A stretch of DNA of 32,601 nt from a virus, in IMG/VR virus record IMGVR_UViG_3300037537_000334, positions 1 to 32,601 of that record; one strand, written 5' to 3'. A program made the translations under genes and the position numbers. The notes under the pieces were generated by a model. The model did no database searches. It was not told the origin of the DNA and worked only from the letters and a program-made list of their open reading frames with translations. Within the stretch, counting starts at the first letter, position 1, and every line of letters starts with the position of its first letter. Below are positions 9,841 through 21,408 of this stretch, in pieces.

Positions 9841-10149
9841 ATGCCTGATGTATATACGTTTGAAAAGTTCCATAGACTAACACTAGATGAGTTCACCCTG
9901 TTAAAAGGCACTGAGCTCATGTCAACAATGTTAATCAACAAATGGTATACGAACAGTGATGACGTTATAGATTTACTAGACGATTATGCAACTGGGGCCT
10001 GGTGTACTACGAAACATGGTGATGGATGGCTTGTATACCTTTCTAGTGAATCCGATATTATATTAGCAAGGCAACATGTTACACCAGATATTGTTCCTGC
10101 TCCAGCAATAACGAGTATAAATATTGCTGATGAGTTTACAAATACCTAA
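9841..10149 (+). CDS. Small phage protein, unknown
   Basis: 102 residues from the ATG at 9841, which follows the preceding stop by two bases. A GTG at 9829 would extend it by four residues into the preceding gene and seems less likely. The sequence has an N-terminal helix-rich half (FEKFHRLTLDEFTLL...) and a middle segment GAWCTTKHGDGWLVYLSSES that looks like a beta hairpin. No catalytic motif identified. Its 3' end overlaps the amidinotransferase gene by about 20 nt, so the two are probably translated from one message. Confidence 0.6.
   Translation: MPDVYTFEKFHRLTLDEFTLLKGTELMSTMLINKWYTNSDDVIDLLDDYATGAWCTTKHGDGWLVYLSSESDIILARQHVTPDIVPAPAITSINIADEFTNT
10116..10123 (+). promoter_or_regulatory. 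Possible late promoter inside upstream gene
   Basis: Exact TATAAATA within the end of the preceding CDS, seven bases before the amidinotransferase ATG. The 14 nt TATAAATATTGCTG also occurs at 12235. Initiation here would give an almost leaderless message, so chance is a real alternative. Confidence 0.35.
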
Positions 10150-11206
10150 TAAACATATATGGTCCTGCAATGAGTGGGACCCCCTTAAAGAGATAATTAT
10201 CGGGACGGCAATAAATGCCAACATACCTGATAACGATATAAGTCACCATGCTACAAACTATGCTAACCTAACTTCAGAAGAGTATGCACAATTGCCCAAG
10301 GGAAGATATCCCGAGCATGTATACAAAGAAGCTGAAGAGGATCTAGAAGGATTAGTATCTGTACTAGAACAAGCAGGAGTAACGGTTCACAGACCTGATA
10401 CAAGCGTCATAGACTTCACTAGTACTGTAAGTAATGGTCTATGGGAGTCAACACAATACGAAGCATACTGTCCGCGTGATAGTGTTACTGTTATAAGTGA
10501 TACTATAATAGAAGGTGCTATGAGTTTACGAGCAAGGTACCACGAAACATTCTTGTTCAACAAACTATTCAAAGAGAAGAGTATGCAAGGTGCTAGATGG
10601 CTACCAATGCCTAAGCCCATGCTACAAGATAACCTGTTTAAGTTACAGCCAGGCAAAGATCCTAGTGTAAATAACAACGAGCCTATTTTAGATCCTGCTA
10701 ACTTAATTAGATGTGGGTACGATATAATGTATTTGATATCTAATACAGGTAACGAACAAGGTGCTCAATGGCTACAAAACACCCTCGGAGACGCATTTAA
10801 CGTTCATATGATGCACGATTTATACAGTTGGGCTCATGTAGACAGTACTATTATGCCGTTACGTCCTGGTCTTGTAGTGTTAAATGCTACTAGAGTAGAC
10901 AAGGATAAAGTCCCTGAGCTATTTAAGAGTTGGGATAAGATTTGGTACACAGAAGAGATGTGTGTTGGACAGCCTTGCTTAGAAAACTATGCACCAGCAA
11001 GTGCATGGATAGGTATGAATACACTTAGTATTGATCCAAATACAGTTATAGTACCAAGTGAAGAAGTAGGTTTGATGAGAGCAATGAACAAATATGGTGT
11101 GGATACAGTACCAGTTCAGATGCGTCATATGAGGACATTAGCTGGCGGACCGCATTGTGTAAGCACAGATTTAGTGCGAAAAGGCACCCTAGAATCGTAT
11201 AAATAA
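10130..11206 (+). CDS. Glycine amidinotransferase-family enzyme
   Basis: 358 residues from the ATG at 10130; a TTG at 10124 is the other option. The family transfers the amidino group of arginine to an amine acceptor, giving ornithine and a guanidino product (AGAT, or StrB-type aminocyclitol amidinotransferases). Hallmarks visible: N-terminal SCNEWDPLKEIIIG, PRD (115-117), DPANLIRCGYDI with D198 at the AGAT catalytic Asp position, the histidine motif AHVDSTIMPL (H236), and the C-terminal nucleophile in GGPHCVSTDL (C343) followed by KGTLESYK, close to the AGAT ending. Length fits. All catalytic residues are intact, so activity is likely. The acceptor cannot be read from sequence. It overlaps the upstream gene and ends at a late-promoter octamer. 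Confidence 0.88.
   Translation: MSLQIPNKHIWSCNEWDPLKEIIIGTAINANIPDNDISHHATNYANLTSEEYAQLPKGRYPEHVYKEAEEDLEGLVSVLEQAGVTVHRPDTSVIDFTSTVSNGLWESTQYEAYCPRDSVTVISDTIIEGAMSLRARYHETFLFNKLFKEKSMQGARWLPMPKPMLQDNLFKLQPGKDPSVNNNEPILDPANLIRCGYDIMYLISNTGNEQGAQWLQNTLGDAFNVHMMHDLYSWAHVDSTIMPLRPGLVVLNATRVDKDKVPELFKSWDKIWYTEEMCVGQPCLENYAPASAWIGMNTLSIDPNTVIVPSEEVGLMRAMNKYGVDTVPVQMRHMRTLAGGPHCVSTDLVRKGTLESYK
11198..11205 (+). promoter_or_regulatory. Late-promoter octamer TATAAATA
   Basis: Exact TATAAATA overlapping the last codons of the amidinotransferase gene, 67 nt before the phosphoesterase start. A consensus sigma70-like promoter follows at 11217, so the downstream gene may have both early and late promoters. 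Confidence 0.5.
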
Positions 11207-15793: not shown

Positions 15794-16501
15794 ATGCATT
15801 TATATACAGGAAGAGAAGTTATTGCCCATGCTGTTGCTGTCGATAGACATCAAGGGTTTAAATACATCAAATCGCATGAAGCAAAGGAAGGAGAGAAAGC
15901 TAACTTTAGCCTATTAATCCATTCATTAAAGGACCCAAAGACGTCAGTAGTTGGTGCCATTACTGAAAAGGACTATAATACAGCAGACGAAATCGTCGAT
16001 TACTTCGAAGGATTAGTGTTTAAGGCTATGCAACGTGAGTTAAGCGAGTACGAAATAAAGATCACTAATCTTATTAACGCAGAAGATATCGATTTAAGGG
16101 GTAGAGACGATAGGCTTCCTATTGTTGGTTCGTTACCTAACGTATTTAGAAACAATAACAAGCATGATATTTGGGCAGAACAGGAACAACGTCTACGCAA
16201 GACATCAGACTATGAAGGCGAACTTAAAACTAGATGCGAGTTTTCTGGTACAGTTAAGATGTCTCGTTTTATGAACAGGACTAATAGTTTGTTAGTTGCA
16301 GTACTCACAGACAAAGGAAACATTGTTAAGTTCTTCTATGACTTGTACAGACAATCACCTGACTTTGAACCTAAGGATGCACTCGCAGAAGGCAAAACAA
16401 TATCCTTTATAGGATATGTTAAAGGACAGGACATATCCAAATACTCTAAATGTAAAGAAACGTTTATTAATAGAGTCAATGTCAATACAGAAGATAAATA
16501 G
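15794..16501 (+). CDS. Phage hypothetical protein, possible nucleic-acid role
   Basis: 235 residues, AAAGGGG before the ATG. The N-terminal part is mixed and charged. The C-terminal part (about 140-235) reads as alternating strands: CEFSGTVKMSRFM, SLLVAVLTDKGNIVKFFYDL, TISFIGYVKGQD, which could be an OB-like or similar beta barrel. That is a guess from pattern only. The final codons carry the late-promoter-like GATAAATA that precedes the envelope block. I do not recognise a family. Confidence 0.55.
   Translation: MHLYTGREVIAHAVAVDRHQGFKYIKSHEAKEGEKANFSLLIHSLKDPKTSVVGAITEKDYNTADEIVDYFEGLVFKAMQRELSEYEIKITNLINAEDIDLRGRDDRLPIVGSLPNVFRNNNKHDIWAEQEQRLRKTSDYEGELKTRCEFSGTVKMSRFMNRTNSLLVAVLTDKGNIVKFFYDLYRQSPDFEPKDALAEGKTISFIGYVKGQDISKYSKCKETFINRVNVNTEDK
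16493..16500 (+). promoter_or_regulatory. Late-promoter-like GATAAATA
   Basis: Lies at the end of the previous CDS, about 85 nt before the cytochrome gene. NATAAATA is the late promoter form reported for marine T4-like phages. The 11 nt AAGATAAATAG recur at 22157, before the next fibre gene. Confidence 0.5.
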
Positions 16502-16511
16502 AGTATATAAG

Positions 16512-16562
16512 AATATAAGATAACCTTATATTAGTATCAGAGCATTCGCTCGTAATTGATAC
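16512..16562 (+). promoter_or_regulatory. Two hairpins in the leader of the cytochrome gene
   Basis: AATATAAG (16512-16519) pairs with CTTATATT (16525-16532). Immediately after, GTATCA (16534-16539) pairs with TGATAC (16557-16562), enclosing GAGC-ATTC-GCTC (16540-16551). No T run follows, so termination is unlikely. The leader may regulate stability or translation of the gene at 16585. Confidence 0.45.
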
Positions 16563-16584: not shown

Positions 16585-17871
16585 ATGTACAAATACATAG
16601 CCGTGGCTCTTTTAGCCACTGTGGCTAATTCAGCGTGGGCGATGGACGAAGTAACTTACATTGATGGGGTTTCATCAATAATATATCATAATTGTGTCGT
16701 ATGCCACCGAGAAGGTGGAATTGGTCCAATGAGTTTTGAGTCTTATGAACAAGTAAGACCCTGGGCACCACTTATCCAAATGAGGGTAGCAAATAGAGAA
16801 ATGCCACCTTATGCTTACGATCACGGTATTGGTATTCAAGACCTACAAGGTGATTGGAGACTACCGCAAAATGATATTGACACGATAGTTAATTGGGTAA
16901 GGAGTGGCTCTCCATATGGAGATGCCGATACGGCGATTATATTACATTCACCTCCAATAAGGGACTTAGATGCATGGAATTTTGCAGATAATTTTGGCCA
17001 ACCCGACCTAATTATCCCTTCAATACCTTTAGATATTCCAGCCAATGGAAATGACATGTGGCATAAACATCTTGTACCTTCTGGAGTTACAGAAGATAGA
17101 TGTATTAAAGCAGTACAAGTCAAGCCATTAGGCCATGCTAAATCTGTTGTCCACCACGCTAATTCTAATATAATATTAGAAGACGAGTCGCAAGGTGGAA
17201 TGCTTACTGAATATGCAATGGGTAAGTGGGGAGAATTAGTCCCTGAAGGAGTTTGTAGGACATTTCCAGCAAATGCACAAGTCCGTTGGGATATTCATAT
17301 GTTCCCAGGCGGAGTAGGAGCAATGGCACAAGGAAAAATGATTAAAGATAATGTAGTTGAAATTGGATTATGGTTTCATGAGCCAGACTATGAGAGTGAG
17401 TATAAGCAAGATTTAAGTTTATATAGACTCGGAGACCAGGCTGATATAGTTATTCCACCTCATGGATATTACATGACACAAGGATTTAAGTCTTTTGATC
17501 ATCCTGTGAGAATAGATAGTTGGCAACCACACGGACATTTAAGAATGAATGCCGCCAGCATAGAAATATTTTATCCAGAAACAGGCAGAACTGAACAAAT
17601 AAGCCAAGTATCAAATTGGAGTGCAACATGGCATCACAGTCATATATTTGCTTCGGATGTAGCACCATTACTTCCTACTGGAGCAGTAATAGTATTGAAA
17701 CAATGGTACGACAACACAGAAAACAACCCCAACAACCCCGATCCAGACCAATGGGTGGTTGGTGGTAGTAGAACAGGTGATGAGATGACTCATAACTGGA
17801 TGGCGATTACCCATTTAGATGATGAAGGCTATGATAAACTAAAGGAGGAACGAGGTATAAATGAAATCTAG
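16585..17871 (+). CDS. Secreted c-type cytochrome / PHM-like copper monooxygenase fusion
   Basis: 428 residues. A signal peptide (about 1-19, cleavage near AWA) sends it to the periplasm. Residues 30-110 hold one c-type heme site, CVVCH (37-41), with a possible axial Met in REMPPY (M73). The rest matches the two-domain copper type II, ascorbate-dependent monooxygenase pattern (PHM/DBH): HH (190-191) and H238 as one copper site, HGH (316-318) and M401 in GDEMTH as the other, plus the NNPNNPDP segment. Fusions of this kind are known from bacterial genomes; I do not know of one in a phage. Heme could feed electrons to copper; substrate unknown. All ligand positions are kept, so it looks functional. 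AAAGGA precedes the ATG and a lipoprotein gene overlaps its end. Confidence 0.8.
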   Translation: MYKYIAVALLATVANSAWAMDEVTYIDGVSSIIYHNCVVCHREGGIGPMSFESYEQVRPWAPLIQMRVANREMPPYAYDHGIGIQDLQGDWRLPQNDIDTIVNWVRSGSPYGDADTAIILHSPPIRDLDAWNFADNFGQPDLIIPSIPLDIPANGNDMWHKHLVPSGVTEDRCIKAVQVKPLGHAKSVVHHANSNIILEDESQGGMLTEYAMGKWGELVPEGVCRTFPANAQVRWDIHMFPGGVGAMAQGKMIKDNVVEIGLWFHEPDYESEYKQDLSLYRLGDQADIVIPPHGYYMTQGFKSFDHPVRIDSWQPHGHLRMNAASIEIFYPETGRTEQISQVSNWSATWHHSHIFASDVAPLLPTGAVIVLKQWYDNTENNPNNPDPDQWVVGGSRTGDEMTHNWMAITHLDDEGYDKLKEERGINEI

Positions 17872-18496: not shown

Positions 18497-18647
18497 ACAC
18501 CATCTCCCATTTAAAAGTGGATTGGCAGGAATAGGGTTGCTTGGAGCATTGTTTTATGTTACGTTTGATCCTATAACAATTATTTCATACGGGTTATATA
18601 TTTCATTGGCAAGTTTAATGTTTCCGTTGATATGGGATTTATTGTAA
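18486..18647 (+). CDS. Small two-helix membrane protein
   Basis: 53 residues, overlapping the end of the previous gene by 11 nt. Two hydrophobic segments (about 11-26 and 30-50) follow a basic N-terminus MVNKHHLPFK. No family recognised. Overlap and continuity of the unit support expression. Confidence 0.5.
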   Translation: MVNKHHLPFKSGLAGIGLLGALFYVTFDPITIISYGLYISLASLMFPLIWDLL

Positions 18648-18673
18648 ATGTATATAAACGAGGAGAGAGAGAA

Positions 18674-18886
18674 ATGAAGACAATATTTGCACTACTTATA
18701 GTTGTGCTGACAGGATGTACTAGTGACTTGGTATATTATTTGAATGGTACAGAGATTTACCCAGACTTTGAATTAAATTCTGGACCAGAATTTGAATGGG
18801 TTGAACCTTTGCTATTCCAACATAATTTAAGAATTTGCAGGTCCCAGCCAACTTGTTCTGTTGATCAGATATTTAATAGATATTAA
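18674..18886 (+). CDS. Small lipoprotein
   Basis: 70 residues from the ATG at 18674, which has a purine-rich AGGAGAG upstream; the earlier in-frame start at 18632 would put 14 polar residues before the signal and lies inside the previous gene. The signal ends in the lipobox VLTGC (C15). The mature part has three further cysteines? Only two are clear (C57 and C63 in RICRSQPTCS), which could form a disulfide in the periplasm. Resembles the mini lipoprotein at 17861 in the EFEWVEP segment. Function unknown. Confidence 0.65.
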   Translation: MKTIFALLIVVLTGCTSDLVYYLNGTEIYPDFELNSGPEFEWVEPLLFQHNLRICRSQPTCSVDQIFNRY

Positions 18887-19009: not shown

Positions 19010-19735
19010 ATGAAAAGACAACTGATATATGTCCTTATTATTTTAATATGCTTTTCTATACCAAAGGTATATGCCCAAGATCCGTATGATTTCTCCGAAG
19101 TTAATATTCTACAGACTGAAGCCCAACGCCTTATTGAAAATCAACAGCCCACAGCAGGCTATGCCTTATTTGAACAGATACTTTTTCTAATTAGAGTTGA
19201 GAAAGGATTATATTCTGTTGAGCAAGTCCCTTATCTATTAGAATATATGGCGTGGAATAAAGAAATTGGGGCCTGGGAAAAGACTTTAAGTATTGGGGAA
19301 AGAACTAGTTGGCTATTGGGTAGAAATGAACATCAGATAGATAATTACAGACGATTATTATTAGAACATATTTACGTTCCAGAAGATGATAGTTGTTTAA
19401 GGAAAGATAGATATGGCTTGTGGATCAGAGGCGCAAGATTGTGTAATGACTTACGATTCTTTATGGCAGATACTTACATTGCGGCTACAGAACTTCAACA
19501 GATAGTGGTGCAGATTACTAACAATGAAATGGACTGGGAATCTCTCAAGTATTTAGCATTGGCTACTGCACAAATGGTTTTTGGTGTTGATGGTTCTCCT
19601 ATAATGATAGAAATTAGAGATGGAACTTTGGAAAGGATTGACAATACAGTTATCAGGGAGAGATACAGACCGGACACATGGCTAAGAATTGCAAAAGACG
19701 CAGATGAAAATATTAAAGAGCTGGTGGGGGAATAG
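19010..19735 (+). CDS. Secreted TPR-like helical protein
   Basis: 241 residues with GGAGG before the ATG and a signal peptide (about 1-22, cleavage after VYA). The mature part is helical and resembles periplasmic proteins with TPR-like repeats that I associate with Gammaproteobacteria (QRLIENQQPTAGYALFEQIL; VEKGLYSVEQVPYLLEYMAWN; a WLLGRNEHQIDNYRRLL segment). A cysteine pair at about 128 and 144 (SCLRK, RLCND) may be bridged. Such proteins usually scaffold protein contacts. The next gene begins immediately after its stop. Family resemblance is from memory of the pattern; role unknown. Confidence 0.6.
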   Translation: MKRQLIYVLIILICFSIPKVYAQDPYDFSEVNILQTEAQRLIENQQPTAGYALFEQILFLIRVEKGLYSVEQVPYLLEYMAWNKEIGAWEKTLSIGERTSWLLGRNEHQIDNYRRLLLEHIYVPEDDSCLRKDRYGLWIRGARLCNDLRFFMADTYIAATELQQIVVQITNNEMDWESLKYLALATAQMVFGVDGSPIMIEIRDGTLERIDNTVIRERYRPDTWLRIAKDADENIKELVGE

Positions 19736-19789
19736 ATGAAAGTTAAAATATGGTCATACATCCCCTCAACTATTGTTGATGGACAAAAA

Positions 19790-20950
19790 ATGAAGAAACT
19801 TTTAATTATATCAATAATGTTATTACTTTCGTTTTGTGCAACTCACACAAGCAAAACAACTGAATATACACCCATAGTACAAAGTCGAGATAATACTCCT
19901 GAAGAATTACTACTTGATGTAGGTGTTACAATAATGGATGCCGGCTTAGATAACTTTATTGGGAGTGATGAATCAGTAACTGATGGCGACATACGAATAG
20001 CAGAGGCTAGATACTCAACATTCTTACTAGCGGATACGTTACAACGCTCTGCTAATTGGGGTATAGTTTATCTACTACCTCTTGATAGAATCATCATGGA
20101 CGTTTATATAGATGGATCTATTATTCGTTCTAATGGTGAAGAAATGCAACTGCAAATTGCAGTAAGAGATTCAACAGGTAGAGAGTGGTATAATAAACTT
20201 TATACTGAAATAATCAGTAAATTCAACTACGAACAATCAAACCGTACTCTACACGACCCCTTCCAAGTAATCTATAATAAAATAGCCAATGATTTATTAG
20301 TCTTCCGTAATAATGAACTATCTAATACTGAAATAACAAATATTCGATCTATATCTGAGATACAGTTCGCACAAGATTTTGTGCCTGATGCGTTTAATAA
20401 ATATATCTCTCAAGATAGAGAGGGTCTCTATAGACTAACAGCTCTTCCCGCCGAGGAGGATCCCCTATTGATTAACATTCGAACTATACGTGACAGAGAC
20501 TACATGTTCATAGATACCATCCAGGATTATTATGTAACGTACACTAGACAAATGCGTGGTAGTTATGATTCCTGGAGAGAAGTAGCCTACAATGAAACTG
20601 TATCTATCAGAGAACTTGATGCAACATCTTTAAGAAGAAAACTAATAGGCGGAGCACTAATTGTAGCGGGTGTGGCAACTGCTGTGAATGGCGGTAACTA
20701 TGCAACTCAAGCAGGGGGAGCCGGCATAATAGGTATAGGAGCACAAATAACCCGAGAAGGCTTTAATAAGGGTTCAGAAGCTGATATGAGGAGAGAAACT
20801 CTCAAAGAATTAAATGAATCGTTTGCTAACGATGTCGTCCTAAGAACTATTGCTATTGAAGATAGAACTATTACATTGACTGGTAATATTGAAGAACAAT
20901 ACAGCCAATGGAGAGAAATTTTATCTGATATGTACGCACAATCAAATTGA
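19790..20950 (+). CDS. Large lipoprotein of bacterial type
   Basis: 386 residues from the ATG at 19790, placing a signal (MKKLLIISIMLLL) directly before the lipobox LSFC. The earlier in-frame ATG at 19736 abuts the previous stop but adds 18 residues ahead of the signal, so I prefer 19790. The mature N-terminal half holds a segment NWGIVYLLPLDRIIMDVYIDGSI, which resembles bacterial envelope proteins where a periplasmic domain senses or binds a partner. A Gly/Ala-rich hydrophobic stretch (about 300-340 of the long form) could be membrane-associated. I recall similar lipoproteins next to TPR proteins in Gammaproteobacteria, so the pair 19010/19790 may have been acquired together. Function not known. 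Confidence 0.55.
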   Translation: MKKLLIISIMLLLSFCATHTSKTTEYTPIVQSRDNTPEELLLDVGVTIMDAGLDNFIGSDESVTDGDIRIAEARYSTFLLADTLQRSANWGIVYLLPLDRIIMDVYIDGSIIRSNGEEMQLQIAVRDSTGREWYNKLYTEIISKFNYEQSNRTLHDPFQVIYNKIANDLLVFRNNELSNTEITNIRSISEIQFAQDFVPDAFNKYISQDREGLYRLTALPAEEDPLLINIRTIRDRDYMFIDTIQDYYVTYTRQMRGSYDSWREVAYNETVSIRELDATSLRRKLIGGALIVAGVATAVNGGNYATQAGGAGIIGIGAQITREGFNKGSEADMRRETLKELNESFANDVVLRTIAIEDRTITLTGNIEEQYSQWREILSDMYAQSN

Positions 20951-21408
20951 GATTACTCGTAGCTATAATTGTTCTCGCTGTTTTTAATGCTCTTGCTGTT
21001 GCGGCTGACATGCCTTGGGGTTTTAAAAACCCTATTCAATTTCCCGAAGCAGTTCCCGAAGCAGTTCCCGAAAAAGAAACGTTCATTATTGAAGAAATTC
21101 TTACCGCCCCGCGCCCACAAGGTGTGGAGACCCCTCCCCCATTGTTAGAACTAAAATGCACCACAGAAATCGTTGACCACAATACGATGACATTTGGATG
21201 CACAAATGACGTAAAGGGTTGGTGGACATTCAGTGATGTAAAACCTAATGGAGAATATGTTATAATTCTAGATAGAATCTGGGGAAAAGACATGGAAATA
21301 TTAATGCAAGCCGCGGAGTATGTCATATCTATTACCTTGACAACATATGATGGAAGAAAAACCTTTAAACTTGTTCCAGTGTTTAATATAATTGGAAAAA
21401 GAGTATGA
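20947..21408 (+). CDS. Secreted protein with short Pro-rich repeat
   Basis: 153 residues from a TTG in a TTGA overlap with the previous gene. The signal peptide (about 1-20, cleavage after AVA) is clear. Residues 32-42 contain FPEAVPEAVPEK, from a 12-nt tandem repeat in the DNA. After a Pro-rich linker (RPQGVETPPPLLELK) a small beta domain follows with two cysteines (CTTEIVDHNTMTFGC, likely bridged) and GWWTFSDVKPNGEYVIIL. No family recognised. Last gene of the envelope block. Confidence 0.6.
   Translation: MRLLVAIIVLAVFNALAVAADMPWGFKNPIQFPEAVPEAVPEKETFIIEEILTAPRPQGVETPPPLLELKCTTEIVDHNTMTFGCTNDVKGWWTFSDVKPNGEYVIILDRIWGKDMEILMQAAEYVISITLTTYDGRKTFKLVPVFNIIGKRV
21043..21066 (+). repeat. 12-nt tandem repeat
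   Basis: Two exact copies of CCCGAAGCAGTT, with a partial third (CCCGAA) following. In frame they encode the EAVP repeat of the secreted protein at 20947, so the copy number can change by multiples of four residues without breaking the gene. Confidence 0.9.

Follow-up and report, generated by a model that had tools for sequence, protein, structure and literature searches.

A phage-borne gene for a predicted secreted protein with heme c and PHM-type two-copper monooxygenase features

We describe a gene, referred to here as gene A, on a viral DNA fragment of 32,601 bases (the window, an IMG/VR virus record that is linear and without end repeats). Its product is a predicted secreted protein in which a putative heme c site precedes a fold resembling those of PHM and DBH. 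The gene, its fold, the conservation of its ligands, its phage context, and its linkage to partner genes were all computed, and they show gene A to be a phage-borne, partner-linked variant within a known enzyme superfamily rather than, as far as can be told, a carrier of new chemistry. We think it likely that the protein acts as a periplasmic copper monooxygenase fed with electrons through its own heme.

Fold and metal sites of the gene A protein

Gene A begins with an ATG at 16585 and ends with a stop codon at 17869 to 17871, exactly the position first given for it. Its N terminus, MYKYIAVALLATVANSAWA/MDE, reads as a Sec-type signal peptide. The GC content of the gene is similar to that of the surrounding DNA, so that composition speaks neither for nor against recent transfer. 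The features of the locus are collected in Table 1.

Table 1. Features of gene A, its leader, and its partners (window coordinates unless a locus is named)
Feature	Position	Strand	Basis or remark
Gene A, heme c/PHM-type two-copper monooxygenase-like, predicted secreted, 428 aa	16585..17871	+	ORF, conservation, fold
Predicted signal peptide, residues 1-19	16585..16641	+	Read from sequence; helix 2-17 in AlphaFold model
CVVCH, predicted heme c attachment site, residues 37-41	16693..16707	+	Invariant in A and B
Met73, candidate distal heme ligand (REMPP)	16801..16803	+	One of only two invariant Met
Predicted two-copper monooxygenase fold, residues 136-415	16990..17829	+	Foldseek and VIA-align matches to PHM, DBH
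His190-His191, predicted CuH ligands	17152..17157	+	Invariant in 219 homologs
His238, predicted CuH ligand	17296..17298	+	Invariant in 219 homologs
His316-Gly-His318, predicted CuM ligands	17530..17538	+	Invariant across A and viral B; most bacterial redoxin fusions have lost it
Met401, predicted CuM ligand (DEM motif)	17785..17787	+	Invariant
Conserved leader hairpin GTATCAGAGCATTCGCTCGTAATTGATAC ahead of gene A	16534..16562	+	Compensatory change GAGC/GCTC to GAGT/ACTC
ATAAATA, possible late-promoter-like element	16494..16500	+	~91 nt upstream of start codon
Small lipoprotein Lip, partner of gene A	18632..18886, likely start 18674	+	Downstream of A in 31 viral loci
Cytochrome c between A and B, examples	L109 4348-4716; L113 11257-11622; L144 11417-11785		

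In an AlphaFold model (pLDDT 84, pTM 0.82, from a 70-row alignment), the protein is predicted to adopt a PHM-like two-domain beta-sandwich fold. When the model was compared with the PDB by Foldseek, ranks 1 to 31 were all PHM or DBH (E values of 2e-11 to 1e-8), and VIA-align gave Z scores of 18.5 to DBH and 15.4 to 18.2 to PHM; PNGase F, the fold that came next, scored 8.7. A preliminary description of this DNA had proposed a fusion of heme c with a PHM/DBH-type copper domain, and both the match to PHM and DBH and the conservation of the ligands support that proposal. Searches of Pfam, NCBIfam, and PHROG placed the protein in no family above threshold, and sequence searches of the PDB returned no match to PHM; SMC3, Aer2, and formin-like sequence matches from the PDB were weak and unrelated, and were rejected. 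Pfam Cu2_monoox_C (PF03712) did not match the gene A protein and matched a viral paralog, termed B, weakly (E value of 0.09, 12.7 bits); those bacterial relatives that exceed the cut-off for this profile (up to 30.8 bits) match the gene A protein with E values down to 4e-39. A structure search of BFVD found no comparable PHM-like viral protein, the best matches being poorly superposed.

The N-terminal domain modelled alone (pLDDT 83) is predicted to form three helices. Against the PDB, this isolated domain had no Foldseek match, and its best VIA match was the PgcA cytochrome domain at a Z score of 2.1. Because it has no clear fold match, the cytochrome reading rests on CVVCH, on Met73, and on weak Pfam cytochrome c scores (E values of 0.048 and 0.4, both below cut-off). 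A CXXCH and a distal Met in a small helical domain are traits of class I cytochromes c, and the invariant CVVCH and Met73 and the predicted helices agree with them.

The strongest sequence evidence for the heme/copper reading is the invariance of the putative ligands in an alignment of 219 homologs, made up of viral and bacterial close relatives of A plus viral paralogs B, the latter 24 to 28% identical to the gene A protein. Only 43 columns are invariant, and each of the ten heme and copper positions falls in one of them (hypergeometric P value of 4e-11). The only invariant His residues are 41, 190, 191, 238, 316, and 318, and the only invariant Met residues are 73 and 401, so that the predicted CuH set (H190, H191, and H238) and CuM set (H316, H318, and M401) are both present as invariant residues. 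Every A and viral B sequence having the relevant column keeps all of the ligands. The signal peptide, single CVVCH, and six copper-ligand positions listed in the preliminary description were all recovered as claimed. Between near relatives of gene A, dN/dS is ~0.04 to 0.3, and the gene is under purifying selection.

In animals, PHM/DBH-type enzymes make peptide hormones and noradrenaline. The residues with which PHM holds the peptide carboxylate, R240, N316, and Y318, align in local register with Q314, H403, and W405, which are invariant in family A; the PHM sequence itself was checked for this comparison. The peptide-carboxylate anchor of PHM proper is thus absent from family A, and because the residues holding the peptide are replaced, the substrate is probably not peptidylglycine. 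The gene A protein looks PHM-like at its metal sites, yet it is probably not a peptidylglycine hydroxylase. Oxidation of a peptide, one of the activities proposed at the outset, becomes less likely for the same reason.

Phage context and distribution

Gene A is truly phage-borne. The window also encodes a T4-type DNA polymerase (phrog_262, 2e-201), an endolysin, a tail fibre, and a baseplate wedge initiator. As this polymerase is closest to those of jumbo phages of 349 to 490 kb (40 to 47% identity), the window is probably a fragment of a jumbo phage. Relatives of gene A are encoded on at least 228 IMG/VR stretches, and their presence beside phage markers in many contigs supports the phage origin first suggested for the gene. 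On T4-like and jumbo-phage contigs they occupy several sites: between gp44 and gp62/regA, directly after the major head gene gp23, or close to genes for tail fibre, Fe-S assembly, NrdB, or lysis. The genes adjoining phage copies encode major head protein, prohead protease, clamp loader, sliding clamp, regA, and tail tube. A T4-type head protein, terminase, or DNA polymerase is found on 16 of the 22 long contigs, one of which, at 340 kb, has all three. Gene A sits between phage genes in phage genomes, as an auxiliary metabolic gene would.

In the gene A tree, the viral copies form one clade (SH-aLRT of 93) that lies beside two gammaproteobacterial sequences (99) and nested inside a bacterial, gammaproteobacterial family. 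Among 50,697 phage genome records, there was no match for A, B, Lip, or the extra cytochrome described below, and none of the cultured phages in the collection searched carries gene A. The literature searched, which took in few subscription papers and no preprints, turned up the phage genes pmoC, amoC, and nirK and no phage gene of this kind. The earlier remark that no phage example had been described therefore holds for these records and this literature. Since the family is common in IMG/VR, absent from the phage records, and unnamed in the profile libraries used, annotation pipelines likely miss it.

The leader hairpin ahead of gene A recurs at three other loci (L104 501-529, L105 5650-5678, and L141 9953-9981) whose A proteins are not the nearest relatives, and among the loci compared it is found only ahead of A. 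A search of the window against Rfam gave no match, the hairpin included. As to expression late in infection, as first proposed, the promoters differ between sites: a late promoter of the T4 type, TATAAATA, lies ~38 to 40 nt upstream of relatives linked to gp23, those linked to gp44/gp62 have no such promoter upstream of A, and ATAAATA in the window is not above chance (17 observed versus 14.6 expected).

It is also worth pointing out some features of the surrounding DNA. Two loci labelled as Neomarinimicrobiota and Flavobacteriales MAGs, L012 (PBPT01000016.1, 335 kb) and L011 (DQKQ01000288.1), look like phage; by eye, clamp loader, PhoH-like, ThyX-like, and lysis-like genes surround A in L012. 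A 4Fe-4S ferredoxin-like phage gene lies a few genes upstream of A in L110 (2446-2787), L111 (2045-2386), and L012 (2934-3269), and another phage has a ferredoxin-reductase-like gene upstream of A (L139 6626-7354). In the gp45-gp44-A-gp62 cluster, a phage peroxiredoxin (Redoxin, 7e-27) is encoded two genes upstream of A (L002 582-1199 and L004 3980-4633). The window itself encodes an amidinotransferase-like protein of 360 aa (10124-11206; likeness by eye) that matches phrog_25854, of unknown function, at 5e-31.

Partner genes and bacterial relatives

Viral copies of gene A are followed by either of two partners, the lipoprotein Lip (55 to 84 aa, with a C-terminal CRxxxxC...LF motif) or B, which is a second, diverged copy of A with the same heme and copper motifs. 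We counted 31 viral loci with Lip, the window included, and 39 with B; no viral locus had both, 6 had neither, and 13 had no room to tell, all of these counts including near-duplicate contigs. The start of Lip often overlaps the stop of A, and in the window it lies ~800 bases downstream. The tree of A requires six changes between B and Lip, at least four of which are forced by well supported branches. L012, which has Lip, and its sisters L111 and L119, which have B, have matching neighbours except for this swap. A search with Lip alone found A directly upstream in 4/4 loci having upstream sequence, and a pattern search of the bacterial loci retrieved saw no Lip. Eight loci have a gene for a membrane-anchored monoheme cytochrome c (PF00034, 3.6e-7) between A and B. 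Lip, its alternation with B, and the interposed cytochrome c are new here, and with paralog B itself and the breadth of the family they go beyond the preliminary description. Downstream of Lip in the window (19010-21408) lie three consecutive genes whose products (241, 404, and 153 aa) have a signal peptide or a lipobox and belong to no known family.

Full-length relatives from Gammaproteobacteria (Pseudohongiella, OM182, and others) are 65 to 76% identical and have the same domains and ligands. Their genes are arranged in tandem, with up to four or more copies per array, beside GMC oxidoreductase, MFS, and propeller genes. Across 73 bacterial loci, the neighbours included a secreted unknown protein (49 loci), an MFS transporter (17), a GMC alcohol oxidoreductase (16), and gluconate-2-dehydrogenase subunit 3 (15). 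This neighbourhood fits a hydroxylase that makes an alcohol, the product being oxidised further in a catabolic route. A PHM-PAL pair occurs in animals; a similar pairing with the adjacent bacterial NHL propellers was considered and dropped, as Pfam prefers gluconolactonase-like propellers. Bacterial relatives of the B type carry a fused redoxin domain (AhpC-TSA, 3e-6), and unlike A, most of them have lost the HxH pair, which indicates that the fold can persist without CuM. Examples of bacterial fusions of redoxin, heme c, and PHM fold, mostly without the CuM HxH and encoded divergently from A, are L028 1583-3346 and L013 1671-3440, both on the minus strand.

Proposed function and comparison with known systems

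From these features we infer a course of export, heme and metal loading, electron transfer, and monooxygenation, as well as a kind of substrate and a benefit to the phage. The gene A protein would be exported into the host periplasm, where the cytochrome c maturation machinery of the host would attach heme at CVVCH and copper would occupy the CuH and CuM sites. The cytochrome pool of the host periplasm could then pass electrons into the heme and on to the coppers, the heme domain taking the place of the ascorbate used by the animal enzymes. O2 would be activated at CuM and one of its atoms inserted into a C-H bond, either of a small molecule or of some component of the envelope. Lip in the window, or elsewhere B with or without the membrane-anchored cytochrome c, probably serves to anchor the enzyme or to supply electrons. 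For the infected cell, the benefit would most likely be a gain in nutrients or energy. A broader reading, which we put forward tentatively and with slightly less than even confidence, is that a widespread group of uncultured phages possesses a self-wired periplasmic heme c/two-copper oxygenase with an exchangeable partner and a substrate beyond the known range of PHM and DBH, by which the phage would conduct oxygen chemistry of its own in the envelope of the host; that partner would be either Lip, which in the loci compared was seen in viruses only, or another monooxygenase, in some cases accompanied by the membrane cytochrome c.

Other explanations need to be weighed against a heme-fed monooxygenase of this kind. 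The enzyme might use PHM-like catalysis, tethered by Lip, to modify lipid, O-antigen, or porin in the host envelope and so exclude other phages or aid lysis. A translation-coupled lipoprotein partner, endolysin and spanin-like genes near several loci, and gp23-linked loci with a late promoter would all suit such a role, which we nonetheless regard as unlikely: bacterial relatives adjoin dehydrogenases and transporters, not envelope genes, and the gp44/gp62-linked copies lie within a replication cluster. Alternatively, the protein could be devoted to redox balance or stress, draining electrons to O2 or removing peroxide, NO, or copper, with no hydroxylation. We consider this improbable despite the redoxin fusions of bacterial B-type relatives and the phage peroxiredoxin upstream of A in gp44/gp62 loci, since neither copper site varies in A, the CuM triad, which in PHM binds O2, included, and a simple electron sink would have no use for two such sites.

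Loss of HxH from most bacterial B-type proteins, where the fold outlives the CuM site, raises the further thought that the copper domain is catalytically idle and that the protein is a heme c carrier or scaffold built on an old PHM fold. The invariance of the ligands in all A and viral B sequences that have the column and the low dN/dS make this very improbable. It is harder still to credit that misassembly or binning attached bacterial DNA to a phage contig. The window is indeed a 32.6-kb fragment without end repeats, and close bacterial relatives exist; however, the same gene is present in many independent phage assemblies and at several phage sites, the viral copies form a clade of their own, and the bacterial loci retrieved showed no Lip.

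Among characterized proteins, the closest likeness is to PHM and DBH, the copper type II ascorbate-dependent monooxygenases, with which the gene A protein shares the two-domain fold (Z scores of 17 to 18 over ~250 residues), the HH/H set at CuH, the HxH/M set at CuM, and the DEM motif. It differs from them in its low identity (12 to 14%), its N-terminal putative heme c domain, its bacterial/phage origin, the lack of a known ascorbate partner, and the replacement of the peptide-carboxylate residues. If our reading is true, the protein could serve as a model, in soluble form, for PHM-type enzymes fed through a heme, and so shed light on how electrons are supplied to the two distant coppers of PHM and DBH. 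The gammaproteobacterial cytochrome c/copper proteins differ in being encoded in tandem arrays, whereas phage copies are single or paired with B or Lip.

Cyanophages carry electron-transport genes, for example for plastocyanin, whose products are carriers only, with no oxygenase. Gene A resembles them in supplying an electron carrier from the phage and is predicted to add an oxygenase. PmoC and AmoC each form one membrane subunit of a complex of the host, and their fold is unrelated to that of the gene A protein. Their genes are phage-borne copper-dependent oxygenase genes, and the phages carrying pmoC are large too (PMC7674155, PMC8115048). Compared with these subunits, gene A is predicted to encode a complete soluble catalytic unit together with its own electron-entry domain. 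If the enzyme works as proposed, phages would run O2-dependent C-H oxidation directly in the host periplasm, a takeover that has so far been suggested in comparable form only by way of single subunits such as PmoC and AmoC.
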